Source: an uncultured Bacteroidales bacterium (lineage in GTDB: Bacteria > Bacteroidota > Bacteroidia > Bacteroidales > UBA4417). Taken from it: DNA of 42,792 bases. The notes beneath the pieces are model-generated. The model did not search any database and was not told the origin of the DNA. It saw only the letters and a list, made by a program, of their open reading frames with translations. A program made the translations under genes and the position numbers. Shown here one piece after another: positions 314 through 39,254 of the stretch (within the stretch, counting starts at the first letter, position 1; each line of letters starts with the position of its first letter). The stretch is taken from assembly GCA_903879715.1 (NCBI GenBank), contig CAIRMR010000066.1, positions 1 through 42,792 on the forward strand, written 5' to 3'.

Positions 314-1069
314 TTATTTGAGCTGCAATTTTTCTAAAATATTTTTAGCTTCCTGGCAGTGGAAATTATCAGGGTTCGAAGCCACAACAACAAACTGGTC
401 GATTGCTTTATCCTTTTGATTATTTTTAAGATAGCAAAGACCTAAGTACCATTCAGCATGTTCTATATAAAGGTTGTCGTTTTGTTTGATTATCGTAGTG
501 AAAGCTTTAATCGAGTTATCATAATTTTTAGTTTCGATGTTAGAAATCCCGTAATAAAACCATACGGCTATATTCGTATTATCTTTATCCAGAATGCTTT
601 TGAATAGTTGGGAAGCTGACGCAAAGTCCTTCTGCTGGAACTTGATCACGGCTTCTACTATATTCTGATCACCGCGTGTCTGATCAATAATATTCTCTGA
701 GTTATAATACTGGGAGAAGAGCGAATCATTGGTAATCCTGCGGGGAGTCTGCAAATACAGGGTTGCGGCAACAGCAACCAGGGCTATCAGTGAAGCGGCG
801 GCATACCACCATTTGCGGGTATACATGCGCACAACCGGTACCTCAGCTTTAACTACCTTGCTGGCATTAATGGCCGCAATAAGCTTTTGCCGTAAATCGA
901 TAATATCATCCCTCATCAGGGCCGAATCAATATTTTGGGAGAGTCTCAGCTCTTCTGCCAGCTCAGGATTTGATGTCAATTCCTTTTTAAAGGCAGTCCG
1001 CTCAGAGGGCACCATTTCATTGGCAAGATATTGCTCAATGGTGGCTGAATGTTTAAAGTTAGTTTTCAT
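314..1069 (-). CDS. Anti-sigma-factor-like membrane protein with TPRs, copy 1
   Basis: Predicted membrane-bound partner of the ECF sigma factor encoded just upstream. From the chosen start (ATG at 1069-1067) the protein has 251 residues. An acidic helical N-terminal segment (about 1-80, with IEQYLANEM and PSER motifs) resembles the sigma-binding region of Bacteroidota anti-sigma factors. One transmembrane helix follows at about 87-106 after R-K-W-W, then a C-terminal region with TPR-like helices (about 140-250). This places the N-terminus in the cytoplasm and the TPRs in the periplasm. The start overlaps the sigma stop by 11 bases, exactly as in copy 2. An upstream in-frame ATG at 1105 would extend it inside the sigma gene and is less likely. 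No zinc-binding HxxxCxxC motif is visible, so assignment as an anti-sigma factor rests on context and architecture. Confidence 0.8.
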   Translation of the reverse strand: MKTNFKHSATIEQYLANEMVPSERTAFKKELTSNPELAEELRLSQNIDSALMRDDIIDLRQKLIAAINASKVVKAEVPVVRMYTRKWWYAAASLIALVAVAATLYLQTPRRITNDSLFSQYYNSENIIDQTRGDQNIVEAVIKFQQKDFASASQLFKSILDKDNTNIAVWFYYGISNIETKNYDNSIKAFTTIIKQNDNLYIEHAEWYLGLCYLKNNQKDKAIDQFVVVASNPDNFHCQEAKNILEKLQLK

Positions 1070-1643
1070 TTTTAAAATTTTTTTGACTACGTGGGTCATC
1101 AGCAATACGTTTCTTTAATTCTTGTTTGCACAGGTACTTCCGGGTTTTTGCATAATTTTCGGTTTTAAAACCCATAATTCCGGCAATTTCGCGTAAAGGG
1201 ATATTCTTAATAAAAAGTTTTAACACTTTTTGGCAGTCTTTAGGCATTGACAAAAAATGTATTTGAATAATCCGGTGCAATTCAGCTTCTTCAAGGTTTG
1301 CTTCCTGAAACAAGTCTTTAGGCAAATCAATAAAATCATCTACATCTGTAAGTTTGTCAAAAATAGCTTTCCGCCTGGCAAGCTTTTGAAGCCATAAATT
1401 CCGGCAAACCGAATACATATAAGTTTTGAAAGAACTGGTTAATACTAATTGGTTTAAGCTTATCTTGGTATAAAGTATAATGATCCCGTCCTGAAATACA
1501 TCCTCAGCATCCTCCCCTGATCCTCCATTCTCGGCGACAAGAAATTTGACCAGTGGGAAAAACTCCCTGTAGGTGAAATTAATGATGTAATCACTCCTTA
1601 ATCTCAGTCCTTCCAATATGGCTTCGTCAGAATAATGGATCAT
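1059..1643 (-). CDS. ECF-type RNA polymerase sigma factor, copy 1
   Basis: A 194-residue sigma-70-family protein of the extracytoplasmic-function type. Region 2 (core binding and -10 recognition) lies at about 24-92, including EDAEDVFQDG and the aromatic run ending RNLWLQKL. Region 4, a helix-turn-helix for -35 recognition, lies at about 124-180 with the core PLREIAGIMGF. Length is usual for the class. The stop overlaps the start of the anti-sigma-like gene, indicating translational coupling. It is about 84% identical (163/194, counted by eye) to the second copy at 2727-3311, and residues 136-173 are identical in both, so the two probably read the same -35 element. The upstream sequence at 1672-1709 is conserved in copy 2 and may be a self-recognised promoter. 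Confidence 0.93.
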   Translation of the reverse strand: MIHYSDEAILEGLRLRSDYIINFTYREFFPLVKFLVAENGGSGEDAEDVFQDGIIILYTKISLNQLVLTSSFKTYMYSVCRNLWLQKLARRKAIFDKLTDVDDFIDLPKDLFQEANLEEAELHRIIQIHFLSMPKDCQKVLKLFIKNIPLREIAGIMGFKTENYAKTRKYLCKQELKKRIADDPRSQKNFKNEN

Positions 1644-1671
1644 CTTTTATACTACTATATCCAGAAAATCG

Positions 1672-1709
1672 AAAAAGGTGATACCGTTTTCAGAACTTTT
1701 TTTCAATTA
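1672..1709 (-). promoter_or_regulatory. Candidate promoter block, sigma copy 1
   Basis: Read on the minus strand, this segment contains AAGTTCTGAAAAC followed by GGTATCACCTTTTT, ending about 28 bases before the sigma start. The same block with few changes is found at the same distance before sigma copy 2 (3338-3378), while the flanks have diverged more. The T-rich end resembles a weak vegetative -7 element (TAnnTTTG) with changes, so a housekeeping promoter is the alternative to an ECF-dependent one. Confidence 0.45.
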
Positions 1710-1936
1710 TTTTTAATATGATATATATCTAACTATTATACAGCTACTTATAGATTAAAATATTTTTCAACAATTATTGGTTCAGGCACCTGTTTTATTG
1801 AAAAACCAAAGAAATACAGATTAAATCATTCACTTGAAAATATAAATGCAGTTAACAATACAATTCCAAACAGTATGGGACAATTAAAATAGTTGTCCCG
1901 TGTTTACCAAAACTGCTCATGTTTGAAAGCATCAAA

Positions 1937-1960
1937 CAAAACCGACTAAGGTCGGGTTTT
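1937..1960 (-). terminator. Terminator of sigma/anti-sigma operon 2
   Basis: The arms AAAACCGAC (1938-1946) and GTCGGGTTTT (1951-1960) pair with one mismatch or bulge around a TAAG loop. On the minus strand it lies about 22 bases past the stop at 1982 and runs into a T-rich tail. A second hairpin at 1877-1899 lies further on and could act as a backup. Confidence 0.75.
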
Positions 1961-1981
1961 AGCTATTGAATAAATAAGTGA

Positions 1982-2737
1982 TTATCGGAGTTGAAGTTTC
2001 TCTAAAATATTTTTTGCTTCCTGGCGGTGGAAATTATCAGGATTTGAGGCAACAGCAACAAACTGGGCAATAGCTTTCTGTTTATAATTGTTCTTCAGGT
2101 AACAAAGACCCAAATACCATTCAGCATGTTCGATATATAGATTGTCGTTTTGCCGGATGATTGTAGTAAAGGCTTTAATGGAGTTGTTAAAATTCTTAGT
2201 CTCTATGTTTGATATCCCGTAATAAAACCAAACCGCAATATTCGAATTGTCTTTATCTAGCAGACTCTTAAATAATGCAGAAGCTTGAGCGAAATCTTTT
2301 TCCTGGAATTTAATTATCGCTTCTACTATATTCTGATCACCACGGGTCTGATCGACAATATTCTCCGAATTATAATATTGGGAGAAAAGAGAATCAGTGG
2401 AAACCTGCCGTTGTGCATGCAAATACAAAGTTGTAGCAACAGCAAACAATACCAGTACCGAAGCGGCAGCGTACCACCATTTCCGTGTATTCATACGTAC
2501 TACCGGAACTTCCGCTTTTACTACCCGACCTGCGTAAATAGCTAAAATAAGCTTCTGTCGTAAATCGAGAATATCATCGTTTAAAATAGCCGCATCAATA
2601 CTTTGCGAAAGCTTCATTTCTTCTGACAGGTGAGGATTCGATATCAGCTCCTTGTTAAAGGCAACGCGTTCCGAAGGAGTCATTTCATCGGCAAGATATT
2701 GCTCAACGGTGACTGAATGTTTAAATTTATTTGTCAT
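1982..2737 (-). CDS. Anti-sigma-factor-like membrane protein with TPRs, copy 2
   Basis: Paralogue of the protein at 314-1069 with the same 251-residue layout: an acidic helical N-terminal sigma-binding-like region (motifs VEQYLADEM and TPSER), one transmembrane helix at about 87-106 after RKWW, and a periplasmic TPR-like C-terminus. By eye roughly three quarters to four fifths of residues match copy 1. The C-terminal TPR part and the TRGDQNIVEA segment are the most alike, and the membrane segment and its flanks are the most different. The start at 2737 overlaps the upstream sigma stop by 11 bases, as in copy 1. A longer start at 2773 exists but lies inside the sigma gene. The differing membrane-proximal segments could separate the signals sensed by the two copies. 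Confidence 0.8.
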   Translation of the reverse strand: MTNKFKHSVTVEQYLADEMTPSERVAFNKELISNPHLSEEMKLSQSIDAAILNDDILDLRQKLILAIYAGRVVKAEVPVVRMNTRKWWYAAASVLVLFAVATTLYLHAQRQVSTDSLFSQYYNSENIVDQTRGDQNIVEAIIKFQEKDFAQASALFKSLLDKDNSNIAVWFYYGISNIETKNFNNSIKAFTTIIRQNDNLYIEHAEWYLGLCYLKNNYKQKAIAQFVAVASNPDNFHRQEAKNILEKLQLR

Positions 2738-3311
2738 TTTTAATAAATTTCTGACTACGAGGGTCATCTGCAATACGTTTTTTTAAATCTTCCTTGCACA
2801 GGTACTTCCGGGTTTTAGCGTAATTCTCGGTTTTAAATCCCATGATTCCGGCAATTTCACGTAAAGGAATATTTTTAATAAAAAGTTTCAATACTTTCTG
2901 ACAATCTTCGGGTAACGACAAAAAATGTATTTGAATAATCCTGTGCATTTCAGTTTCCTCAATACTTGCTTCCTGCAGCATATCTTTTGGCAAATCTATA
3001 AATTCCTCAACATCTGTAAGCTTATCGTATATAGCTTTTCGCTTATTAAGTTTTTGAAGCCATAAATTCCGGCAAATCGAATACATGTATGATTTAAAAG
3101 AACTGGATAATACCAATTGATTTAAACTTATTTTATTATAAAGTATAATAATCCCATCCTGAAATATATCTTCAGCATCTTCATCAGCACCACCATTTTC
3201 AGTCACAAGGAATTTGATCAACGGGAAAAAATCCTTGTATATGAAATTAATGATATAATCACTCCTTAATCTCAGCCCTTCAAGTATGGCTTCATCAGAA
3301 TAATGGATCAT
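2727..3311 (-). CDS. ECF-type RNA polymerase sigma factor, copy 2
   Basis: A 194-residue paralogue of the factor at 1059-1643, with 31 substitutions, mostly conservative. Region 2 spans about 24-92 (EDAEDIFQDG) and region 4 about 124-180. The 38 residues 136-173 around the recognition helix are identical in the two copies, so target promoters are expected to be shared. Most changes fall in the linker between regions 2 and 4 and at the C-terminal tail. Its stop overlaps its own anti-sigma-like gene. Both operons point the same way, which fits an old tandem duplication of the whole two-gene unit. Confidence 0.93.
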   Translation of the reverse strand: MIHYSDEAILEGLRLRSDYIINFIYKDFFPLIKFLVTENGGADEDAEDIFQDGIIILYNKISLNQLVLSSSFKSYMYSICRNLWLQKLNKRKAIYDKLTDVEEFIDLPKDMLQEASIEETEMHRIIQIHFLSLPEDCQKVLKLFIKNIPLREIAGIMGFKTENYAKTRKYLCKEDLKKRIADDPRSQKFIKNDK

Positions 3312-3706
3312 CGCTCTGCTATATTATCCGGATTATTAAAAAAGGTAATGCCATTTTTAGAACTTCATCTTTCAATTAATAAAACTATCGCCTTACGTGT
3401 TGTTATTCAGTATTTTATGTTACTCAAAACTCACTAACATTTTATTTTTGCTTACACGAAATCAAAAAAATAATTTTAATCCCGGCAATCTATTCTACGG
3501 CAAAGATGAGACAAATTTGAAAATTTTTTAAAATATTTTTTAAAATAAGTATTACCTTTTCAATAAAAGCGGATTAAGACTTATACTGCATCACGCTGAG
3601 GGTTAATTTTATCTATAAAGATTCATAAAAACAAATTACATAGACAGGAATATAATTATAAAATCAAAATCAAAAAAATGCTCATCAAAAACTAATCTAA
3701 CTCGTC
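3312..3706. promoter_or_regulatory. Divergent promoter region, sigma copy 2 and secreted protein
   Basis: This 395-base A/T-rich gap separates divergent genes. The minus-strand block at 3338-3378 (GGCATTACCTTTTTT near 3352-3338) matches the block before sigma copy 1. On the plus strand AGTATTACCTTTTC at 3548-3561 resembles the same motif and lies about 145 bases before the secreted-protein start. The segment 3515-3546 is a run of A and T with short palindromes. No coding frame was seen. Assignment of these motifs to an ECF promoter is inference from similarity alone. Confidence 0.45.
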
Positions 3707-4945
3707 ATGAAAAATCATTTTCTCTTCACCGCATTTTTATTTTTTGCATTGATTTTAACACAAACTTCTAACGCAGGTGACATTACCGGTAAAGTATTAT
3801 ATCAGGGAGATGTCAACAGACCTATCGGAAGCGTTTTAGTTACTTTGAAAAACATTGAAAACAATACCATTAAAACGTATATAACTCAAAACGACGGATC
3901 TTATCAGTTTACTGATCTGAGCAGTGGCAACTACGTTGTTACAGGCGCAACATCTATTGCAGCCAGCGGAGTAACGTATTATGATGCTACATTGGTATTC
4001 CTTCATTTGGCAGGGTTTATCAAATTTACCCCGATACAACTTATGGCAGCCGATGTAAACGGCAGCGGAAATGTTACCTGGGGTGATTATACGCTTATTG
4101 TTAAACACATATTGAAAGGTACACCCTTTCCTGCCGGCCCTTGGAAATTTGAAAGTGCAACTTTCCCGTTATCAAACTTAAAAACGGTTGGTATTGATCC
4201 TACATCCCTGGGAGGAACTTGTTCAGGTGATGTGGGAGGTACATTTGTTCCTCAACTTTACAATACACCTGCAATGCCACTAGCATTGGAGGGCGAAATC
4301 AATGTTACCTCTGGCGAATCGTTTACATCAAGAATACTTACTCAAAACGCGCTTTCGATTACCGGTGCAGGGCTGATTATCAATTATCCTTCTGATTTAC
4401 TACAAATTGAGTCGGTTGAATTTAAAGGAGCTGATTATGAGTATGATATTGCTGATGGGCAAATACGCCTTGTCTGGGGGAATCCAAACTCGAGTCCTCT
4501 TGATTTCGGTGAAGGCGAAACCTTAATTACCATTCATGGTGTAACCACATCTGCATTCCAGCCCGGAATGAATGCAAGTATAAGTCTGGATGGAAATACC
4601 AGCCTTATGAGTACATCAAATACAGAAATAACAAACCTTAAGTTTGCATCCCCAATCATTAAATATGGGAAACAATCCTTAAGACTCAACAATTATCCCA
4701 ATCCGTTTACAAATTCAACCAAGCTCACTATTTTCTCTCCGGAGGCAGGAAACGCAACTGTTGAAGTGTATAACACAAGCGGACAATTGGTAAAAAAGAT
4801 TTCTATGGGTGTAGTGAATGCCGGATACCGCGAAGTAGATCTTGATGCATCGCAAATGTCAAAAGGTAACTATTTTTGCAAATTACGAATTCAGTCCGAA
4901 AGCTCTGAATCCACAAACACTATACGAATAGTAAATGCAAAATAA
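3707..4945 (+). CDS. Secreted dockerin/cohesin-like protein with type IX secretion sorting domain
   Basis: A 412-residue exported protein. A Sec signal peptide covers residues 1-23 (cleavage after SNA). A carboxypeptidase-regulatory or prealbumin-like beta-sandwich follows (about 25-85, starting ITGKVLY). Next comes a dockerin type I-like segment: a degenerate first half around 90-105, then a clear calcium-loop motif DVNGSGNVTWGD at 116-127. A cohesin-like beta domain spans about 195-315, and a type A sorting domain runs from about 325 to the end with YPNPF at 330-334. It should cross the inner membrane by Sec and the outer membrane by the type IX system, ending at the surface or in the medium. 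Dockerin and cohesin in one chain suggest self-association or binding to similar proteins. It lies divergent from sigma copy 2 and may be in its regulon (inference). No enzymatic domain is visible. Confidence 0.88.
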   Translation: MKNHFLFTAFLFFALILTQTSNAGDITGKVLYQGDVNRPIGSVLVTLKNIENNTIKTYITQNDGSYQFTDLSSGNYVVTGATSIAASGVTYYDATLVFLHLAGFIKFTPIQLMAADVNGSGNVTWGDYTLIVKHILKGTPFPAGPWKFESATFPLSNLKTVGIDPTSLGGTCSGDVGGTFVPQLYNTPAMPLALEGEINVTSGESFTSRILTQNALSITGAGLIINYPSDLLQIESVEFKGADYEYDIADGQIRLVWGNPNSSPLDFGEGETLITIHGVTTSAFQPGMNASISLDGNTSLMSTSNTEITNLKFASPIIKYGKQSLRLNNYPNPFTNSTKLTIFSPEAGNATVEVYNTSGQLVKKISMGVVNAGYREVDLDASQMSKGNYFCKLRIQSESSESTNTIRIVNAK

Positions 4946-4963
4946 TTCACAAAATATTGGAAT

Positions 4964-4993
4964 AAAAAAAAGGAGCTTTTGGCTCCTTTTTTT
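4964..4993. terminator. Bidirectional-looking rho-independent terminator
   Basis: The arms AAAAAAAGGAGC (ending 4976) and GCTCCTTTTTTT (4982-4993) pair around a TTTTG loop, 19 bases after the stop of the secreted-protein gene. The T-run gives termination on the plus strand. It overlaps an upstream in-frame ATG of the next gene at 4979, one reason to place that gene's start downstream. Confidence 0.88.
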
Positions 4994-5017
4994 ATGTACA
5001 TGAGGTTAACTTTGTCT

Positions 5018-5025
5018 TATCTTTG
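5018..5025 (+). promoter_or_regulatory. Candidate -7 promoter element of the CHAT gene
   Basis: TATCTTTG matches the Bacteroidota vegetative -7 consensus TAnnTTTG and lies 58 bases before the chosen start at 5084. No exact TTTG is present 19-21 bases upstream; only TTATG at 4992-4996 falls at a suitable distance. A second motif, CGTATCACTTGTC at 5042-5054, resembles part of the block before the sigma genes and is an alternative promoter. Confidence 0.45.
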
Positions 5026-5083
5026 CATTTACTCAAATACTCGTATCACTTGTCTCTTACCGGTAATTTCGAAGTCGTGCCCT

Positions 5084-8000
5084 ATGAAAAGCCCTTTGGC
5101 ATTATTTTGCTTCAGTTTTCTTATATTTACCGGACTATGGGCTCTATGGTCGTGTGATAACAATACCCCCGGAAACTCAAATCTAAACAAAGTACCGGAT
5201 CTGGTTGTTGCTGAGCAACTGAAAAACCGCAGCAGTTACGATTCGGCTATTATATTTTACAGGAAAGCTGCTGACAATCACCTTAAGAATCGTCAATACG
5301 CTGATTGGGTAAAGGGCGTATCGGGTCTGATTGATTGCCTCAAGGCTAAAGGCAATAAGGAAGAAGCTATGCGGACTGCAGATCAGGCTCTTGAAATCGC
5401 AAAAGCCAGGATTGACACTTCCGCCAATCTCTATAATAATTTAATTCACAAGAAAGCCGGTTTATTCTCAGATAACCGGCAATTTGATCAGGCTACAGCA
5501 CTTTTTAATAGGAATATCAGGGTTTATTCATCAAGGTCGGCTCCGCCTGATACCGGTCTTGCTATGGCTTTCAATGGTATGGGTACTGTAAATCTTTTAC
5601 AGAATAAATATAATGAAGCAATTGAAGAATATTATAAGGCAATTGAAGTTTATGAAAAAACCAGTCATACCCGGAATGTAAATTATACCGGTACATTGCA
5701 GAATATTGGAATAGTATATTCAATGACTGGCAATTACGAAAAAGCTGAACAATATTTTTTAAAATCGCTGAAGGTAAACCAGGACCTGCTTAAATCTAAA
5801 GACCCTAGACTAGCCGCACTATATCTTAATATGGGCAGGTTTTATCAGATAGTTCGCAACGACTTGAAAGCTATTGAGTATATGAAACAAGCCGAAAATA
5901 TTTATCTTAGTCAAAATCAATCGAATTCTATCACTGCAGGCTCACTATTCCTGAACATGGGGGTAATTTACATCTATACTTCCGATTTCGAAAAAGCCCA
6001 AAGTTATTTTAATAAATCGCTGGAAATCATTCTGGCCAAAGCTCCGGGTAATAAGGCTGATTTACTCACCTTATATCTGAATATGGGTTTTATTGCTGAA
6101 AAAAAAAGCGAATATACCAGTTCAAAAAACTATTACCTGAAAGGATTATCGATTGGAGATAAACTTCCGAATTCAGTTAAAGTTCTCAGAGGTTTAGCAA
6201 ATGTATCATTCAAAATGTCGGATAAAACCAATGCGAATGCCTATTATAAAATGGCATTACAAAAAAGCATTGAGATGTATGGAGAGGAACACCCCGAAAC
6301 TGCCCTCACTTACCTCAGATATGGTGATTTTCTTTCAGGGACAGGCGAGAAGCAAGCATTATTATACCTAAAAAAGTCATTGGATATTTATAAAAATTCC
6401 TTTGGCAATGTTAATATAGATGTGTCAACAGCTTATAATTATATTGGCAGTTATTATAGCAGGATACATGATTTTAAAAAAGCGCTCAGTTATTTTCAAT
6501 TCTCACTGATTGCGGGATTTCCATCATTTACGTCTAACAACATCTCTGATAATCCTGAAATCTCATCAGATAACCTGAATGACAACCTTCTGAAACCACT
6601 AACTTACAAAGCTACGGCACTTCTTTCGCTATACTTGTCGGATACAACCAGGACAGATTTGTTAAAAGACTGTGTTGCCAGCTATACTCTTTCGTTGAAA
6701 ATGATAGAAATGCTCCGATCCACCTACCAGGATGAAAACAGCAAGTTATTTATTTCGGAGAATGAGAAAACCACCTTTACCAATGCACTGCTTTCGCAGG
6801 TAAAACTCTATTATAAAACGCAAAACCCTGCCGCCTTAGATGAAGCTTTCAGCCTTTCAGAAAAAGGGAAATCAGCTGTTTTGCTATCGCACCTTCGGGA
6901 TAAGGAAGCCAAAAGTATCGGGCGAATTCCTGAAAATCTGCTGAATCAGGATGCAAGCCTGAAATCAGAGATCTATTTTTATAACAAACAGATCCATGAT
7001 CAAAAAATTACTACAAATCCGGATGATGCTAAAATCAAAATGTGGAATAGCAGGATTTTTGACCTAAGCCGCAAACAGGATGAACTCATCAAATCAATTG
7101 AGAAAAATTATCCTGCATATTATAATCTCAAATATGACAATTCAGTTATATCTATAAACGACATACAGAAAAAGCTTTCGCCTGAACAGGCAATAATTGA
7201 ATTTACACTTACAGATTCCACCTTATATACTTTTGCAATAACCAGCAGCAGCAAGCAACTCGTAAACACCTCAATTGACAGCTCATTCTTTACTAATCTT
7301 CAAATACTAAGGGCACAATTAAGCGGCAAAGATTTCAATAATTATACAGCTGCTGATTTCAAAGCATTTGTTAATTCATCCTATGATCTCTATAGGAAAT
7401 TGCTTTCCCCCATTCAAGAATTAATTAAAGGGAAAGAACTTATAATTATTCCTGACGGGGAACTAGGGTACCTTTCATTCGATATATTACTAACATCACT
7501 GCCTGGTTTAAGTAAACCTTCCTATAGAAAACTTCCATACCTGATTAAGGAGTCGGCAATATCTTATGCCCCTTCTGCAACTACTTTCTTCGATGAGCTG
7601 AACCGCAAGAATATAAAAAATAATGGGCGGATACTCGCTTTTGGTCCCGATTACGGACCTGACAATACAGTACTCAATCAAAAAGATGAAAATGGCAAGT
7701 TGTCAGAAAACGCCCTCGCAAATCTTACTAATACGCGGGATGAAATCAAGAACCTGAAGGAATATTTCAATGTTAAAGCCTACCTGGGGAAAGAAGCAAC
7801 TGAAACAACATTCAAAAAAACAGCTGCTGATTACCGGGTTTTGCATCTCGCTATGCATACCGTTATTAATAATGAAAATCCATTATACTCCAAATTAATA
7901 TTCTCCAGGCAAAAAGGGGATACAACTGATGATGGGATGCTTAATGCGTCAGAATTGATTACTATGGAATTACACGCTGATATGGCTGTATTAAGTGCCT

Positions 8001-8416
8001 GTAATACCGGTTCGGGAAAGATGAGGAAAGGCGAAGGCATCATGAGCCTTTCACGTGATTTCTTTTATGCCGGAGTACCTGGTATTATTATGACTTCCTG
8101 GGCTGTTGAAGATCGTTCGGGGGTAAAACTTATGGAAAACTTTTACAAGTATATTGCCCAGGGCAAACCGCGCCATGAGGCATTGCGCCTGGCTAAAATT
8201 GAATACCTCGAAAATTGCGACAAACTTACATCTCATCCTCACTACTGGGCTGCTTATATGAATGTTGGAGATATCAGCCCGCTTCGGGGATTTGGTAAAA
8301 AAACTACTCCTTTTTCAATTTACGGAGCTGCCGCGACTCTTTTCTGTTTAGCTTTATTACTGCTGGTATATTTGATAAGAAAGAAGACCAGAAACAAACG
8401 CAGTAGCGATATTTAG
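5084..8416 (+). CDS. TPR-CHAT lipoprotein, predicted caspase-like protease
   Basis: A 1110-residue protein. The start at 5084 gives a lipoprotein signal peptide (MKSPLALF... to LWSC, lipid-anchored Cys24); an earlier in-frame ATG at 4979 lies in the upstream terminator and spoils the signal. About eight to ten TPRs fill residues 30-500 (motifs such as LNMGVIYIYTSDFEKAQSYF). A helical linker follows, then a CHAT domain from about 730 to 1065. Its catalytic pair is intact: His925 in HLAMHT and Cys973 in LSACNTG, with the downstream HPHYWAAYMNVGD block. A transmembrane helix (about 1078-1100) and a basic tail end the chain. CHAT domains are caspase-family cysteine peptidases; TPRs usually bind the trigger or substrate. 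The double anchor would put TPRs and protease in the periplasm. Proximity to the sigma/anti-sigma pairs suggests a role in envelope signalling, but this is inference. Confidence 0.9.
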   Translation: MKSPLALFCFSFLIFTGLWALWSCDNNTPGNSNLNKVPDLVVAEQLKNRSSYDSAIIFYRKAADNHLKNRQYADWVKGVSGLIDCLKAKGNKEEAMRTADQALEIAKARIDTSANLYNNLIHKKAGLFSDNRQFDQATALFNRNIRVYSSRSAPPDTGLAMAFNGMGTVNLLQNKYNEAIEEYYKAIEVYEKTSHTRNVNYTGTLQNIGIVYSMTGNYEKAEQYFLKSLKVNQDLLKSKDPRLAALYLNMGRFYQIVRNDLKAIEYMKQAENIYLSQNQSNSITAGSLFLNMGVIYIYTSDFEKAQSYFNKSLEIILAKAPGNKADLLTLYLNMGFIAEKKSEYTSSKNYYLKGLSIGDKLPNSVKVLRGLANVSFKMSDKTNANAYYKMALQKSIEMYGEEHPETALTYLRYGDFLSGTGEKQALLYLKKSLDIYKNSFGNVNIDVSTAYNYIGSYYSRIHDFKKALSYFQFSLIAGFPSFTSNNISDNPEISSDNLNDNLLKPLTYKATALLSLYLSDTTRTDLLKDCVASYTLSLKMIEMLRSTYQDENSKLFISENEKTTFTNALLSQVKLYYKTQNPAALDEAFSLSEKGKSAVLLSHLRDKEAKSIGRIPENLLNQDASLKSEIYFYNKQIHDQKITTNPDDAKIKMWNSRIFDLSRKQDELIKSIEKNYPAYYNLKYDNSVISINDIQKKLSPEQAIIEFTLTDSTLYTFAITSSSKQLVNTSIDSSFFTNLQILRAQLSGKDFNNYTAADFKAFVNSSYDLYRKLLSPIQELIKGKELIIIPDGELGYLSFDILLTSLPGLSKPSYRKLPYLIKESAISYAPSATTFFDELNRKNIKNNGRILAFGPDYGPDNTVLNQKDENGKLSENALANLTNTRDEIKNLKEYFNVKAYLGKEATETTFKKTAADYRVLHLAMHTVINNENPLYSKLIFSRQKGDTTDDGMLNASELITMELHADMAVLSACNTGSGKMRKGEGIMSLSRDFFYAGVPGIIMTSWAVEDRSGVKLMENFYKYIAQGKPRHEALRLAKIEYLENCDKLTSHPHYWAAYMNVGDISPLRGFGKKTTPFSIYGAAATLFCLALLLLVYLIRKKTRNKRSSDI

Positions 8417-8617: not shown

Positions 8618-11038
8618 GTGATTTCACCCTCAAACTTCGAAGAAAAAACCGGTTTTAATGTTATCAGGCGTATGCTTGACGGTTATTGCCAGGGCGAAGG
8701 TGGTAAATCGCGCGTTGCCAACATCAGGTTTAACAACAATCCTGAATTGTTAAACAATGAGCTTAATGTTACGGAAGAGTTCCGTACTATGTTGCTTACT
8801 GTTTTCGGATACCCCGCTTCGGAATATTTCGACCTGGTAGAAGAACTCAATCACATTCTTATACCAGGCACATTTCTGGCGGCAGAGTCGCTTTTACTTT
8901 TGCGGACATCCTATTCGGCGTATATCAACTGTAAAACCTTTATTTCAGAAACATCAGCCAATACCTTCCCTCATCTTCATTCGCTGATTGCAGGGCAATA
9001 TATTGAACCGGGAATTCTGTCGGGCATTAACCGGGTTCTCGATATCGAAGGCAACATCCGCGACAATGCCTCTCCTACCCTGCTCGAAATCAGGAAAAGC
9101 CTTTCGAGGATGATTCACATGATTGACAAAAAGATTGCGCAGGCTCTTACGCAGGCCAAACTCGACAAATATGTTCCTGCCGATACCGAAATTGCTATCC
9201 GCGATGGAAGGGCCGTAATTCCTGTAAATTCATCAAATAAACGCAAGATAAGCGGAGTGATCATCGATGAATCTGCAACCGGTCAAACATCCTATATTGA
9301 ACCAACGGAGGTTTTCGAACTCAGGAACAGCATCCGCGAACTGGAACTGGCCGAAAGGAGAGAAATCATTAAAATACTTATTGAACTGGCCGATGAATTA
9401 CGCCCGTATATTCAATTACTGAAAGACTCTCTTGACTTTTTGGGACACCTCGATTTTCTCAGGGCCAAAGCTTTGCTGGCAATCGAAACCGGATCGCTGA
9501 AACCTGTATTGCACAACCAGCAGTCATTCAGCTGGATACAAGCCCGGCATCCGCTGCTGATGCTTTCGCTGAAGAAACAGAAACGTGAGATAGTACCTTC
9601 AAATGTCTCTTTAGATTCATCCAACAGGATACTTATTATTTCGGGACCTAATGCAGGCGGAAAATCGGTATTGCTAAAAACAGTAGGATTACTGCAATAC
9701 ATGCTGCAATGTGGTTTATTGATACCTGTGCTTGACACTTCTGATGCAGGTATTTTCGACAACCTTTTTATAGATATTGGTGATCAGCAATCCATTGAAA
9801 ATGATTTGAGTACATACAGCAGCCATTTACTGAATATCAAAAACCTATTAGGATATGCGGATCATTCCACCCTATTCCTTATCGATGAATTTGGAGCCGG
9901 AACTGAACCTCAGTCCGGAGGAGCAATTGCCGAGGCTGTTCTCGAAACATTGAATGATAAAAAATCATATGGCGTTGTTACCACCCATTATGCCAATCTG
10001 AAACTGCTTGCTTCCAACCATTCGGGATTCCTGAACGGAGCCATGCTTTACGATACCAAACACATGAAACCGCTATTTGTGCTTAAAACCGGCAGACCTG
10101 GCAGTTCGTTTGCTTTTGAAATTGCAACAAACATTGCTTTCCCGAAAGAAGTACTCGAAAAAGCAGGAGAAAAAGTAGGTCACGCCAAACTCGATTTCGA
10201 TAAGCAGATGCAGGATCTTGAAGCCGAAAAGCTGGAGTTAAGCCTGAAAGAAAAGCAGCTTCAGCAGGCGGATGAAATGCTCACCGGGCTTATAAATCGC
10301 TACTCATCCCTCAAAGAAGATCTGGATAATAAAAAGAAAGAAATTCTCGAAAAAGCCAGTAACGAGGCAAAGTCAATTTTGAATAAGTCGAACCAGATTA
10401 TTGAAAAAACCATACGCGAAATAAAACAGTCGCAGGCTGATGCATCGCGGACAAAACAATTACGGACCGAAATAAAGGAATTTACTGAGAAGATTGTCGA
10501 AATTCCTCTTGTTGGTCCAATTATTGAAAAAGAAGAAGAAGTAATGCCTCCCGAAAAAGCAACAGGGAAACCTGTTGTTAAAGGTAGCCGTGTCCGAATG
10601 ATTGGTCAGCACGAATCAGGCGAAGTGGTCGATATTCATGGAAATGATGTTACTGTAGCTTTTAGCACAATTACATTAAAAGTCAAATCTGAAAACCTGG
10701 AAGTACTCCAGGCAAACGCACCGGTTAAGAAACAAATTAACCGTGGATACGCCTATCAGAATATGGTGAATGATATGAATGCCCGGACAGCTAATTTCCG
10801 AATCACCATTGATGTAAGAGGAAAGCGGGCTGACGAAACCGAAACGCTTATTCAACGCTATATAGACGAAGCCATTATGCTTCATGTTTCCGAAGTAAGC
10901 ATTTTACATGGAAAAGGGAACGGTGTGCTGCGTAGTATTATCCGCAATTACCTTGGCGGCATTCCTGAGGTGAAACAATTTTCGGATGCTTCTCTTGAAA
11001 CAGGTGGTTCCGGCATTACATTAGTGACATTAAAATAA
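8618..11038 (+). CDS. mutS2: MutS2-family ATPase/nuclease
   Basis: An 806-residue MutS2. In the family these proteins bind branched DNA and limit recombination, and in some bacteria they split collided ribosomes. The MutS core has a Walker A GPNAGGKS at about 343-350 and a Walker B LFLIDEFGAGTEP from about 418. A long charged coiled coil covers about 510-640. The C-terminal Smr domain (about 726-806) has DVRGKRADE and HGKGNGVLR, the motifs expected for the nuclease. There is no mismatch-recognition domain, which separates it from MutS1. The start is GTG; the N-terminal sequence ISPSNFEEKTGF fits the start region of Bacteroidota homologues. It is followed after 45 bases by the thioredoxin gene on the same strand. 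Confidence 0.95.
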   Translation: MISPSNFEEKTGFNVIRRMLDGYCQGEGGKSRVANIRFNNNPELLNNELNVTEEFRTMLLTVFGYPASEYFDLVEELNHILIPGTFLAAESLLLLRTSYSAYINCKTFISETSANTFPHLHSLIAGQYIEPGILSGINRVLDIEGNIRDNASPTLLEIRKSLSRMIHMIDKKIAQALTQAKLDKYVPADTEIAIRDGRAVIPVNSSNKRKISGVIIDESATGQTSYIEPTEVFELRNSIRELELAERREIIKILIELADELRPYIQLLKDSLDFLGHLDFLRAKALLAIETGSLKPVLHNQQSFSWIQARHPLLMLSLKKQKREIVPSNVSLDSSNRILIISGPNAGGKSVLLKTVGLLQYMLQCGLLIPVLDTSDAGIFDNLFIDIGDQQSIENDLSTYSSHLLNIKNLLGYADHSTLFLIDEFGAGTEPQSGGAIAEAVLETLNDKKSYGVVTTHYANLKLLASNHSGFLNGAMLYDTKHMKPLFVLKTGRPGSSFAFEIATNIAFPKEVLEKAGEKVGHAKLDFDKQMQDLEAEKLELSLKEKQLQQADEMLTGLINRYSSLKEDLDNKKKEILEKASNEAKSILNKSNQIIEKTIREIKQSQADASRTKQLRTEIKEFTEKIVEIPLVGPIIEKEEEVMPPEKATGKPVVKGSRVRMIGQHESGEVVDIHGNDVTVAFSTITLKVKSENLEVLQANAPVKKQINRGYAYQNMVNDMNARTANFRITIDVRGKRADETETLIQRYIDEAIMLHVSEVSILHGKGNGVLRSIIRNYLGGIPEVKQFSDASLETGGSGITLVTLK

Positions 11039-36534: not shown

Positions 36535-37452
36535 ATGAAAGATCACCAAAGGGACAAACTAAACATGTATGTGCTGGTTAAAGATTTTTTACTGGCATCA
36601 ACCACTATTACAGGCAGATGGAATGCATTTGCAGCCTTGTTTGCCAGTTTTGTAGATTATGTAGCTGAAATTTTCAGGGTATCGGGTTTGCAGAAGGATG
36701 ATAAGACAGGAGTAACTAAATCGAAAAGCCAGCTTAGAAAGCTTTTGATCGACCAGATTGTGGATATTTCGGTAAAATGCATTGCGTATGCCACCGTGGC
36801 TGAGGACAACGAATTCCTGTCGCTGATAAAATTTGCTAAAGGGGCATTGCAGAAAATGGCCGATGCCGACCTGGTTAAGACAGCCGGCACTTTTCATGCC
36901 AATGTATTACCTAAATTAGCATTGGTAGCTGATTACGACCTTGTACAAGCCGAACTGGATGAATTGCTGACACTGACCAGCGATTACATTGCTATTTACA
37001 CCAAGCCTAAAGGCAATATAAAGGAGACCGCTCAATTAACGGCCAAAGTGAATACCATTTTTGCCCTTGCTGATAAAGTGCTGGTAAAAATTGACGCGAT
37101 GATACAATCGGCACAAAAAAAGGAGCCTGCTTTTGTAGCAGAGTATAACAGCAAACGGATAATTATAAAAACACCTTCGCGTACCCGTGCGTTTTTAATG
37201 ACCGTACTTAACGATGCTACAGGGGAACCTTTAGCAAAAGCGAAAGTGATGATTAAAGCCGTATCTGGTCCTGACCTGGCAAAAATAGTTAAACGCACCG
37301 GGTTGCAGGGCAATATAACCAAGGATATACTAACAGATGGAGGGTATGACTATGAAGTGGAATATAATGGCTGTGTTAAAGAAACAGGTACATTTTTTGT
37401 AAATAACGGGGTTACGACGAAGGTGGTGGTGAGGTTGAAGAAGAGTGAATAA
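36535..37452 (+). CDS. Unknown protein: helical N-domain plus carboxypeptidase-regulatory-like beta-sandwich
   Basis: A 305-residue protein I cannot assign to a characterised family. Residues 1-190 are predicted mostly helical, with leucine/alanine-rich stretches. Residues about 205-305 look like a carboxypeptidase-regulatory or prealbumin-type beta-sandwich (TVLNDATGEPLAKAKVMIK and GGYDYEVEYNGC then VTTKVVVRLKK). There is no signal peptide, although such beta-sandwiches are normally found in exported proteins. It stands alone between the 21-bp array and a terminator. A cytoplasmic structural or binding role is possible, but I have no direct support. Confidence 0.75.
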   Translation: MKDHQRDKLNMYVLVKDFLLASTTITGRWNAFAALFASFVDYVAEIFRVSGLQKDDKTGVTKSKSQLRKLLIDQIVDISVKCIAYATVAEDNEFLSLIKFAKGALQKMADADLVKTAGTFHANVLPKLALVADYDLVQAELDELLTLTSDYIAIYTKPKGNIKETAQLTAKVNTIFALADKVLVKIDAMIQSAQKKEPAFVAEYNSKRIIIKTPSRTRAFLMTVLNDATGEPLAKAKVMIKAVSGPDLAKIVKRTGLQGNITKDILTDGGYDYEVEYNGCVKETGTFFVNNGVTTKVVVRLKKSE

Positions 37453-37468
37453 TGCATAGTGAAAAGTG

Positions 37469-37507
37469 AAAAATCCCTGTTGCTGAATGAGGTGGCGGGG
37501 ATTTTTT
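37469..37507 (+). terminator. Terminator of the unknown-protein gene
   Basis: AAAAATCCCTG (37469-37479) pairs with CGGGGATTTTT (37496-37506), with one G-U pair and a 16-base loop, followed by T. Its 3' arm contains a 14-base word that recurs at 38413-38426. Confidence 0.75.
37492..37505 (+). repeat. 14-bp direct repeat, left copy
   Basis: GTGGCGGGGATTTT, within the 3' arm of a terminator, recurs exactly at 38413-38426. The two copies bracket the HEPN-like gene, 921 bases apart. Confidence 0.8.
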
Positions 37508-37588
37508 AGTAGAACTAAGCCAAGGGATTCGCAAGGGAGCGAGGAGATTCAGAGAAGCAATCAGGAAACCCATATAAATAAAATCAAT

Positions 37589-38374
37589 ATGAAAAAAGAT
37601 GAAAATAATAGCGAGCATCATATCAGTAATGGAAATGGCAGGTCACTTTATGAACTCAATCAGAGCAAACAAGGAGAATGTTTTTATATTAATGCTGTTG
37701 AAAATGCAATTGATTCGCTAGAAACGGCTGTTAGCTTTTTGGATAGGAACGACAATTTAAAATGGAAATGGATTGCTATTTCTTTGCATCACTCTCTTTA
37801 TTCATTCTGTATTGCTTGTCTCAAAAACAGTGATTATACTAATGTTATATCCACAATTAATGATGGGAATCTATATATTAAAAAAGGAAATGATTCCAAT
37901 TGGAAGAAATCCAAGAAAGATCCGAGAAAGAATGGACCTGGATATACAATTAAATGGGAGAATACAAATGAGGAACCGAAAAGAACAACTGGTGAGGAAC
38001 GGATAAAAATAACTGGCAAGAAAAGTAAAGAAAAAGGGTCTAAGCTCATAGGCTTTTGGACTGCTCTAGCTCGTGTACAAGATCAGACCTTATGGATGGG
38101 GAAACTAATGTGTACGAAGGCACTTGTTCTCAGTGATGCTGAATGGCAGAGCATTGAATGGACCACTGAGCAAGTCAGAAATGCCACGGTTCATTTTATA
38201 CCTAAATATTTGGCTGTATCCATACCCAGTGTTAAGAGTGCTTCAATTGATATTCTTAGAGTTATAGAGTTTTTAGCTTTAGAATCTTTTTCTATTGCTT
38301 ACACAAACTATGAACAGGATATAAAAAGAATAAAAATGGCGCTTGATATATTTCGTTCTAAAATTGCAGTTTAA
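37589..38374 (+). CDS. HEPN-like protein, putative RNase
   Basis: A 261-residue protein from the ATG at 37589; the longer frame to 37487 runs into the upstream terminator and was not used. The C-terminal part contains Arg197-Asn-x3-His202 (RNATVH) in a helical context (about 180-255), which matches the R-x4-6-H catalytic motif of HEPN ribonucleases, with Asn after Arg as in many active members. An earlier helix (KWIAISLHHSLYSFCIACL, about 60-78) would be the first helix of the bundle. A lysine-rich insert at about 105-150 may contact nucleic acid. HEPN proteins are frequent in toxin-antitoxin, abortive-infection and CRISPR systems. No antitoxin-like gene is adjacent. Base composition is more A/T-rich than the neighbours. 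The HEPN call is motif-level and needs a profile search. Confidence 0.62.
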   Translation: MKKDENNSEHHISNGNGRSLYELNQSKQGECFYINAVENAIDSLETAVSFLDRNDNLKWKWIAISLHHSLYSFCIACLKNSDYTNVISTINDGNLYIKKGNDSNWKKSKKDPRKNGPGYTIKWENTNEEPKRTTGEERIKITGKKSKEKGSKLIGFWTALARVQDQTLWMGKLMCTKALVLSDAEWQSIEWTTEQVRNATVHFIPKYLAVSIPSVKSASIDILRVIEFLALESFSIAYTNYEQDIKRIKMALDIFRSKIAV

Positions 38375-38412
38375 GTTGGAAAGCAAGAAGGAAAGGATTC
38401 GCGGTAGTGGTA

Positions 38413-38426
38413 GTGGCGGGGATTTT
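38413..38426 (+). repeat. 14-bp direct repeat, right copy
   Basis: This is an exact second copy of GTGGCGGGGATTTT, 39 bases after the HEPN-like stop. Unlike the left copy it has no matching 5' arm, so it does not form a terminator. A shorter word, GGATTCGC, is also shared inside the bracket (37525-37532 and 38395-38402). Confidence 0.75.
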
Positions 38427-38472
38427 ATTGATATAACCAGAATTGGCACAGAATGACTATCGCGCCTGGAGG

Positions 38473-38487
38473 AGGATTACAAATCCT
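38473..38487. repeat. Small palindrome in the gap between convergent genes
   Basis: AGGATT-ACA-AATCCT is a perfect 6-bp hairpin in the 184-base gap between the HEPN-like gene and the membrane protein gene. Surrounding sequence (38456-38500) is richer in G/C than the flanking genes. It may be a leftover of a mobile or dispersed repeat element, which is a guess. Confidence 0.4.
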
Positions 38488-38558
38488 GCCTGACGAAGGT
38501 CTTGTTCCACAGATTCTTCGCTTTTCTCGTTTCAGAAAAACCATCTTTTAACTTAACT

Positions 38559-39254
38559 CTAGTTTTGCATTTTCAACACAATATACGAGCAATACATACA
38601 TAGACAAAGGATTCCAGGAATAATACCTATACTTCCATACAAAATATTTGCTCCAGTTTCTTTGTTAGTTTTAAATTTTGAAAACAGCAGTTTAGTAATA
38701 AGGTATAAGATAAAACACGTAAATAAGGATAATATAAAGAAGCCAATAACAGTCAAATAACCGGGGTACATTTCTTCTTTTATTTTAAATCCTACTGATA
38801 TTTGCCCTAAAATCTTAAATGAAAATATCTGAAAGGCTAAAATACATTGAATTAACTCAGAAACGCCAGGTATAGTTGTAAATATTTTCCCCACTATAGG
38901 GAAAAGAGAAAGCAGTATCATGGCAATACCCAAAAATAGTCCTGTTCTCAAAATTAGCCACCAATTGTTCGATATTATAGATAAAGGGGTAAATCCACCT
39001 ATATTTGCAAATACTGGTATTAATCCTGCAATTAAAAAAGTTATAATTACAGCACCCAACAAAACCATTACAAATGAATTGACTGTAAATAGGAACAGAC
39101 CACTTTCTGGCTTGTAGTCTATCGCATTCATTACAATAGATGACAAAAGAGAATTATAAAGGAGATATATGATAAAATACGCTACTATACATACCCATAT
39201 TTCCCAGTTTGTAAAAAACATTATTATTCCATTAATTATAGATTGCAAAAACAT
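38559..39254 (-). CDS. Unknown six-helix membrane protein
   Basis: A 231-residue, very hydrophobic protein with about six predicted transmembrane helices (near 15-35, 50-80, 95-120, 130-150, 165-190 and 210-228). The only notable soluble parts are short loops (DYKPES and KFKTNKETG). It resembles Yip1-type or other small integral membrane proteins only in general character; I do not recognise a family. Start choice is uncertain: an internal ATG 11 codons in (MFFTNWEIW) is possible. It is convergent with the HEPN-like gene and transcribed toward it. It is notably A/T-rich with many Ile and Phe codons. Confidence 0.65.
   Translation of the reverse strand: MFLQSIINGIIMFFTNWEIWVCIVAYFIIYLLYNSLLSSIVMNAIDYKPESGLFLFTVNSFVMVLLGAVIITFLIAGLIPVFANIGGFTPLSIISNNWWLILRTGLFLGIAMILLSLFPIVGKIFTTIPGVSELIQCILAFQIFSFKILGQISVGFKIKEEMYPGYLTVIGFFILSLFTCFILYLITKLLFSKFKTNKETGANILYGSIGIIPGILCLCMYCSYIVLKMQN

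Follow-up and report, generated by a model that had tools for sequence, protein, structure and literature searches.

Contig CAIRMR010000066.1 of an uncultured Bacteroidales bacterium, which was analysed over its whole length of 42,792 b (the window) and belongs to a genome of 6.07 Mb in 223 contigs, encodes two extracytoplasmic function (ECF) sigma factors, each paired with a membrane anti-sigma factor bearing tetratricopeptide repeats (TPR), next to a predicted exported TPR protein with a CHAT protease domain. Comparison of the sequences across the Bacteroidota indicates that the association of sigma factor, anti-sigma factor and TPR-CHAT protein is real and old, and we are nearly certain that the genes of this module work together. 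The new feature emerging from the alignments is a dipeptide of arginine and a small residue in the linker of the anti-sigma factors, about 24 residues past the transmembrane (TM) helix, and our favoured reading, held with moderate confidence, is that the CHAT protein would cut the anti-sigma factor at this arginine, switching the sigma factor on.

The CHAT family was scanned in 84,980 species genomes, yielding 429 relatives; the best 80 of the 429, which lean to orthologues because they were picked by likeness to the query, were used together with the window, giving 81 loci. When at least 3.5 kb of flanking DNA was present on each side, both a sigma and an anti-sigma gene occurred within 5 kb of CHAT in 39 of 41 loci, the exceptions being L083, with neither gene, and L085, with the anti-sigma gene only. 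Neither gene was found within 5 kb in 17 of the 81 loci; among these L083 alone has full flanks, so the other 16 were not scored as losses. Sigma genes numbered 62 in the 275 kb located 0-2 kb from CHAT vs 2 in the 462 kb located at 5-10 kb, a drop of about 50-fold. A chance neighbourhood is ruled out by this distance profile and by the recurrence of the association in differing layouts and families. The pair can be upstream and divergent, as in the window, downstream and convergent, as in the cultured isolates of Marinifilum, Ancylomarina and Labilibaculum, or split on both sides of CHAT. In 27 of the 46 loci whose set is complete the pair is downstream of CHAT and in the other 19 it is upstream, and in the near-identical f40 loci L148 and L153 the sigma, anti-sigma and CHAT genes all run in one direction. 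The closest named relatives by CHAT family, among the matches listed, are metagenome-assembled genomes of Bacteroidales. The linkage of sigma factor, TPR anti-sigma factor and TPR-CHAT, which the initial annotation of this DNA had proposed as a check of its model, is thus conserved, and it recurs in other families of the phylum. Protein distances over the 46 complete loci correlated between CHAT and the anti-sigma factor (r 0.80) and between CHAT and the sigma factor (0.82); none of 500 permutations attained the CHAT/anti-sigma correlation, and the same nearest neighbour was returned in 19 and 24 of the 46. These correlations point to co-inheritance, not to contact.

A sample of the phylum was then made of 118 genomes, 59 of them with CHAT at E 1e-15, and comprised 94 loci with 89 scored CHAT open reading frames (ORFs), 79 of which were taken into the CHAT tree; ten loci were dropped as having no CHAT ORF at the profile threshold (L194, L203, L204, L207, L209, L211 and L214-L217). 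Within 5 kb of the 50 CHAT ORFs with a C-terminal TM helix, an anti-sigma gene was found in 36 cases, a sigma gene in 31 and both in 30, while the corresponding figures for the 39 ORFs lacking this helix were 15, 17 and 14. The linked anchored CHATs are spread over several clades of the tree. Of the 14 anchor-less ORFs with both genes, twelve make up a single f47 clade in which the pair is at a distance of about 2-3 kb; the other two are L136 and L140 of f40. Three more anchor-less CHATs, L218, L219 and L220 (f38), have an ECF-like sigma match about 1 kb downstream on the opposite strand and no family anti-sigma within 5 kb. In G011 and G013 no match was obtained for either CHAT or the anti-sigma factor, which fits coordinated loss within the genus weakly, G011 being in about 1000 contigs. 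G004 was considered as a decayed locus and rejected, as its missing sigma gene apparently falls in the gap between two contig ends. In L245 (G004:C9, 1-3851) the CHAT gene is in several pieces beside a MutS2 gene that is a single ORF, the result of either a pseudogene or an assembly error.

The CHAT domain of the window protein (PF12770) scored 200.2 bits vs a curated cut-off of 24. The start of the protein is probably the ATG at 5084, common to the alignment, and the TTG at 4979 is less likely, because several relatives carry a stop in the upstream stretch. The residue numbers of the putative catalytic pair, His925/Cys973, match a protein beginning at 5084, and the initial annotation was correct in describing this pair as intact, both residues being invariant in all 20 aligned relatives, down to 23% identity. 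A wider set of 85 CHATs showed a C-terminal hydrophobic helix in 83 and a net-positive tail in 81. Since an N-terminal hydrophobic stretch is combined with a C-terminal TM helix followed by a positive tail, the sequences suggest that the TPR and CHAT regions are periplasmic and that CHAT lies close to the inner membrane. The signal-like N-terminus, the C-terminal TM helix and the positive tail all fit the topology of a site-1 protease, with a predicted periplasmic active site near the membrane. Tandem TPR-CHAT genes, two per locus, were observed in L079, L080, L083 and L102.

The anti-sigma factors are predicted to consist of a cytoplasmic N-domain, a single TM helix (residues 88-108 in the window), a linker and a TPR ectodomain; 119 linked anti-sigma factors have a clear TM helix, with a median start at residue 85. 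The curated anti-sigma model NF052375 was not reached by the two window proteins (27.2 and 23.3 bits vs a cut-off of 100). In the Bacteroidales set, one linker arginine was invariant in 20 of 20 aligned anti-sigma factors, as was a tyrosine ten residues ahead of it, the linker being otherwise variable. For the motif count, linked-set anti-sigma factors of 180-330 aa were reduced to 64 non-redundant sequences (<50% mutual identity), leaving out 5 of 135 without a clear TM helix and setting aside L242, L244 and L246, and the linker stretch was defined as the 46 residues beginning four past the TM helix. The motif Arg-[SGAND] occurred in this stretch in 61 of the 64 proteins vs 33.7 +/- 3.7 in shuffled sequences, with 0 of 500 shuffles as high; when lysine was also allowed, the count was 64/64 vs 51.7 expected. 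A cytoplasmic control stretch, treated likewise, returned 34 vs 33.5 expected.

Some of these counts rest on a displaced arginine, as L136, L140, L198 and L240 were scored (by eye) via an arginine elsewhere in the linker stretch, the first three via one farther along it, and the position was therefore tested separately. The first Arg-small dipeptide, present in 117 of the 119 linked anti-sigma factors, was located at a median of 24 residues past the TM helix (quartiles 23-25). In successive ten-residue blocks past the TM helix, 53 non-redundant linked anti-sigma factors gave counts of 3, 4, 42, 10, 9, 5, 0, 4, 2, 4 and 3, the peak of 42/53 corresponding to residues 20-29. At residues 20-28 the dipeptide was found in 41 of the 53 proteins vs 12 of 65 other single-TM ORFs of the same loci, and at residues 16-30 in 47 vs 14, these controls being mechanical ORFs of which some may not be genes. 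The six proteins without the motif at 16-30 are L124 (Arg-Ser, with the TM helix placed differently), L075 (Arg-Ile), L190 (Lys-Gly), L198 (Lys-Ser), and L136 and L140, which adjoin CHATs without an anchor. The residue after 100 linker arginines was Ser in 36 cases, Gly in 14, Asn in 10, Ala in 7 and Asp in 5.

For the cleavage site of an Arg/Lys-directed protease one would expect a pattern of this kind, with a small residue after a basic one at a constant spacing from the membrane and variable linker sequence around it, and several clan CD peptidase families favour Arg or Lys. Because the dipeptide recurs about 24 residues past the TM helix, the cut is probably to be placed in the linker between membrane and TPR, at the candidate Arg-small site. 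The initial annotation had proposed that the CHAT protein cleaves the TPR region of the anti-sigma factors, freeing the sigma factors: its partners and its idea were right, and the predicted topology has the CHAT domain, the anti-sigma linker and the anti-sigma TPR all in the periplasm, whereas the place of cleavage was probably wrong.

From the conserved linkage, the predicted topology, the catalytic pair, the arginine motif, a shared upstream element and the presence of RseP, we infer a cleavage, its trigger, the release of the sigma factor and a regulon as follows. The ECF sigma factor would be held by the cytoplasmic N-domain of the single-pass anti-sigma factor, whose TPR domain would be exposed to the periplasm, while the exported TPR-CHAT would reside in the periplasm with its C-terminal helix in the inner membrane and its CHAT domain just outside the membrane. 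An envelope signal may be received by the TPR region of TPR-CHAT or by the TPR domain of the anti-sigma factor. The CHAT Cys/His site, acting as a site-1 protease, would then cut the anti-sigma factor after the conserved arginine (Arg132 in the window), and loss of the ectodomain would lay the stump open to RseP, the site-2 protease encoded in the genome (235.9 bits, cut-off 147.55), and next to cytoplasmic proteases. The freed sigma factor would transcribe its own operon and, in at least one relative, the secreted/CHAT operon.

The candidate autoregulatory promoter is a 27-nt element, GTATTACC-TTTTTT-NANNATCYGGATA; all 11 sigma genes in the comparison, which came from 8 loci of the genus and included both window copies, have it shortly upstream. 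With up to 3 mismatches it was found at 17 sites in 8 genomes and at none with the reversed control; 11 sites precede sigma genes, five lie elsewhere without a visible common theme, and one, in G001, precedes the gene of the secreted protein, pointing toward it and beginning 199 nt before an ATG of this gene. This last site, together with the adjacent, same-strand arrangement of the secreted gene and CHAT and the existence of anchored CHATs without a sigma pair, would suit an unlikely alternative in which TPR-CHAT is the output of the switch and not its input: the sigma factor would control the secreted protein and TPR-CHAT, the latter as an effector on other envelope proteins, and the linkage would reflect one regulon. 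Such a scheme, however, leaves unexplained the many convergent layouts, where CHAT and the pair are encoded on different strands (both genes lie only downstream in 21/81 loci) and the fixed-distance motif of the anti-sigma factors, and in the window genome the element, at up to 3 mismatches, is confined to the two sigma genes. One copy of the element, in L261 (G003:C132), stands upstream of a small peptide and of a gene resembling an ATP-grasp peptide maturase (by eye).

Several points weigh against cleavage by CHAT at the linker arginine. The notion that the motif occurs only beside CHAT was rejected, as 10 of 11 non-redundant unlinked anti-sigma factors also have the Arg-small dipeptide; the motif therefore marks the family, not the neighbourhood. 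Nine of these 11 belong to genomes with CHAT elsewhere, and in genomes without CHAT at 1e-15, L236 (G116) has Lys-Thr and L240 (G112) was scored via an Arg-Asn closer to the membrane (by eye). The anti-sigma factors paired with the anchor-less f47 clade retain the arginine, and one clade of anchored CHATs (f37, f42, f44, f49 and f55; 10 rows, support 99/98) has no such sigma/anti-sigma genes nearby; L178 and L188 are further anchored CHATs without an anti-sigma factor on the tree, L212 and L213 being too short or weak to place. In favour of the linkage, 31 genomes encode a full-length anti-sigma factor (at least 75 bits) and 29 of them have CHAT, compared with 59 among all 118 (Fisher p 8e-9, although the genomes are not independent), and for 46 of 59 anti-sigma factors a CHAT domain is no more than 8 kb away, but this co-occurrence is inflated because profile A4 includes anti-sigma factors from these same genomes; the narrower profile A2, applied to 38 hand-chosen genomes at 50 bits or more, showed the same trend, matching in 18 of 26 with CHAT vs 2 of 12 without (counted by eye). 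As for the topology, the double-anchored protein described in the initial annotation agrees with the prediction: the C-terminal helix is found in 83/85, and a cysteine occupies the lipobox position in 14 of the 20 aligned TPR-CHATs (read by eye from the alignment), but no more than 31 of the 85 CHATs of the wider set have a lipobox-like string. A further internal hydrophobic stretch is present in 9 of the 85, and the topology therefore remains a prediction. The excerpt of PMC10028731 that maps the cut in Csx30, the substrate of the analogous system considered below, gives no sign of a role for arginine.

The linker arginine could also be structural or bind another partner. It would have such a role if TPR-CHAT were a scaffold or sensor without anti-sigma proteolysis, its TPR docking on that of the anti-sigma factor and altering its hold on the sigma factor, a reading that we consider improbable. 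His925 and Cys973, invariant in 20/20, would be needless in a pure scaffold, and the arginine sits in a variable linker, mostly followed by small or polar residues; the features in favour of docking are the TPR repeats of both partners, the arginine retained in unlinked anti-sigma factors and the tyrosine, also invariant in the Bacteroidales set, ten residues before it. Cutting at the arginine by another periplasmic protease, with CHAT regulating that protease or acting in parallel, is very unlikely: it would agree with the arginine of the unlinked anti-sigma factors and with L229, where the pair adjoins caspase-domain (C14) and trypsin-like proteins instead of CHAT, but CHAT is the protease recurring beside the pair (a weak point, as the neighbourhoods were not searched for other protease families), and L229 may be a partner swap compatible with cleavage by CHAT elsewhere, C14 and CHAT sharing the same peptidase clan. 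In the L229 stretch (G106:C116, 1-6855), the family sigma/TPR anti-sigma pair is divergent from two Peptidase_C14 proteins, one of them cut by the stretch edge, and a trypsin-like protein; no CHAT was found in this stretch, a possible swap of the protease partner.

The proposed cleavage of the anti-sigma factor by TPR-CHAT can be compared with known systems. The closest analogue is Csx29-Csx30-CASP-sigma of the type III-E systems (Craspase/CASP) associated with clustered regularly interspaced short palindromic repeats (CRISPR), where, as in the window, a TPR-CHAT Cys protease with a His/Cys pair is encoded beside an ECF sigma factor and its inhibitor (PMC10028731). Csx29 partners Cas7-11 and is activated by target RNA; its cut in Csx30, which has two domains and was examined in solution, was mapped to a flexible loop (residues 427-429) and was proposed to relieve CASP-sigma (PMC10028731). 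In the present system, by contrast, a signal peptide and a membrane anchor are predicted for the protease, and the anti-sigma factor is predicted to span the membrane with its TPR domain outside; logic and part list agree, whereas compartment, trigger and inhibitor architecture differ. To our knowledge, Csx29 has neither a signal peptide nor a membrane anchor. When four proteins of the locus were submitted to PADLOC, TPR-CHAT matched a generic TPR model only, no genome-wide search for Cas7-11 or arrays being made. A direct sequence relation to Csx29 or separase was tried and not retained, as none of the 4 PDB sequences matched by the CHAT-region profile A5 (E values up to 10) was a CHAT protein, the presence of Csx29 chains in the set being unchecked; a relation in fold may still exist.

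In CalpL-CalpT-CalpS, a type III CRISPR system, a Lon-type protease activated by cyclic nucleotide cuts an ECF-sigma-bound anti-sigma factor (PMC11417357); the likeness is a signal-activated protease cutting an anti-sigma factor, as proposed here, and the difference is that the protease there is Lon-type, cyclic-nucleotide-activated and CRISPR-linked. In DegS-RseA-RseP-RpoE, the anti-sigma factor of the membrane is cut first by an envelope protease and then by RseP (PMC10028731). A membrane anti-sigma factor, an RseP in the genome and the proposed site-1 cut are shared with this pathway. The protease here is instead a TPR-CHAT Cys protease and the anti-sigma ectodomain is TPR, whereas DegS is a PDZ serine protease and the RseA ectodomain is not TPR. 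The Dma anti-sigma factors of Bacteroides are likewise Bacteroidota membrane proteins adjoining an ECF sigma factor, but consist of a disordered tether and a C-terminal beta-barrel instead of a TPR ectodomain, and the main text of that paper contains 0 occurrences of 'CHAT' (PMC13088901). PMC10028731 was the sole open-licence PMC match combining 'CHAT domain' and 'anti-sigma'. None of the open-licence PMC matches listed described a membrane-bound TPR-CHAT associated with an anti-sigma factor, a mention in the ECF classification literature being possible.

The features of the locus are collected in Table 1. The gene order from the left is two anti-sigma/sigma cassettes on the minus strand, then the secreted protein, TPR-CHAT and MutS2, all on the plus strand. 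All the parts that the initial annotation had placed at 1059..8416 are present, but the module starts at 314 and not at 1059, its first anti-sigma gene occupying 314-1069 on the minus strand. The two sigma switches that it had recognised are confirmed as tandem ECF sigma/TPR anti-sigma pairs at 314-3311, both sigma factors exceeding the TIGR02937 cut-off. The cassettes 314-1643 and 1982-3311, in each of which the anti-sigma and sigma genes overlap, are a tandem duplication with 80% identity over 1330 nt, and both were also found in the relatives G003, G008 and G009, so the duplication is not recent. In the Pfam scan, Sigma70_r2 was over its cut-off in the window sigma factors and region 4 gave no separate match, which tells little because the TIGR02937 alignment reaches residue 177-178.

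Table 1. Positions of the module genes and of their relevant sites in the window.
Feature	Position	Strand	Description
Anti-sigma 2, 251 aa	314..1069	-	Predicted cytoplasmic N-domain, TM residues 88-106, periplasmic TPR; linker Arg132-Gly133, Arg codon 674-676
ECF sigma factor 2, 194 aa	1059..1643	-	TIGR02937 56.8 bits, cut-off 42.9
Element before sigma 2 (GTATCACCTTTTTCGATTTTCTGGATA)	1658..1684	-	Candidate autoregulatory promoter
Anti-sigma 1, 251 aa	1982..2737	-	Predicted TM residues 90-108, TPR; linker Arg132-Gly133, Arg codon 2342-2344
ECF sigma factor 1, 194 aa	2727..3311	-	TIGR02937 58.0 bits, cut-off 42.9
Element before sigma 1 (GCATTACCTTTTTTAATAATCCGGATA)	3325..3351	-	13 nt before ATG; candidate autoregulatory promoter
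Secreted protein, 412 aa	3707..4945	+	Signal peptide; immunoglobulin (Ig)-like ~24-82; dockerin-like 89-145; cohesin-like ~194-290; type IX secretion system (T9SS) sorting tail 330-400
TPR-CHAT, 1110 aa	5084..8416	+	Lipoprotein-like signal peptide, TPR repeats, CHAT domain
Catalytic His925 codon, TPR-CHAT	7856..7858	+	Invariant in 20/20 relatives
Catalytic Cys973 codon, TPR-CHAT	8000..8002	+	Invariant in 20/20 relatives
C-terminal TM helix, TPR-CHAT	8321..8377	+	Best 19-residue window, residues 1080-1098, then basic tail
MutS2	8618-11038	+	Adjoins TPR-CHAT

Other members of the sigma and anti-sigma families were encountered outside the window. A third ECF sigma factor, with about 48% identity, is located in L243 at 5439-6011 (G000:C77:62453-63010) and is present in most genomes of the genus, with no anti-sigma gene of the module's family adjoining it within the 12 kb read. 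In L239 (G001:C12), a family anti-sigma gene at 6280-7095 retains the linker arginine, its nearest sigma match being about 3 kb off in a stretch without CHAT. In L237 and L238 (G022:C72 and G029:C140), sigma/anti-sigma pairs are followed by a large gene resembling a peptidase-containing ABC transporter (by eye, from reading).

The protein encoded between the cassettes and TPR-CHAT had been described as a secreted, type IX-sorted protein with dockerin- and cohesin-like parts. Its sorting tail is clear, with TIGR04183 at 41.8 bits (cut-off 23) and Por_Secre_tail in 20 of 20 relatives; the dockerin falls just short, the window copy scoring 21.9 bits with Dockerin_1, slightly below the cut-off of 22.9, and 15 of 20 relatives matching at E 0.01; the cohesin is weaker, with a Pfam match in 2 of 20 relatives only and a match of the family profile to the solved cohesin 2xdh at E 3.2e-5. 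The gene is an optional member of the module, because it lies within 1 kb of CHAT in 32 of the 81 loci, contig edges included, and is absent from the Marinifilum loci; the initial annotation had overweighted it. Elsewhere in the window, at 36535-39254, three ORFs (36535-37452, 37487-38374 and 38559-39254) gave no Pfam match at 1e-4.

Few substrates of bacterial CHAT proteins outside CRISPR are known to us. If cleavage by TPR-CHAT holds true, a substrate and a candidate cut site would be at hand for many Bacteroidota CHAT genes, with sigma activity as a readout usable in cultured isolates, and a family of sigma systems would gain its site-1 protease. The logic of the CRISPR Csx29-Csx30-sigma switch would then prove to be widespread in the envelope. 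Tentatively, the module may represent a widespread form of Bacteroidota envelope signalling, in which an inner-membrane TPR-CHAT would act as an Arg-directed site-1 protease for TPR anti-sigma factors at about 24 residues from the membrane; it would be the counterpart at the membrane of the CRISPR TPR-CHAT/anti-sigma/sigma switch and may share its origin.

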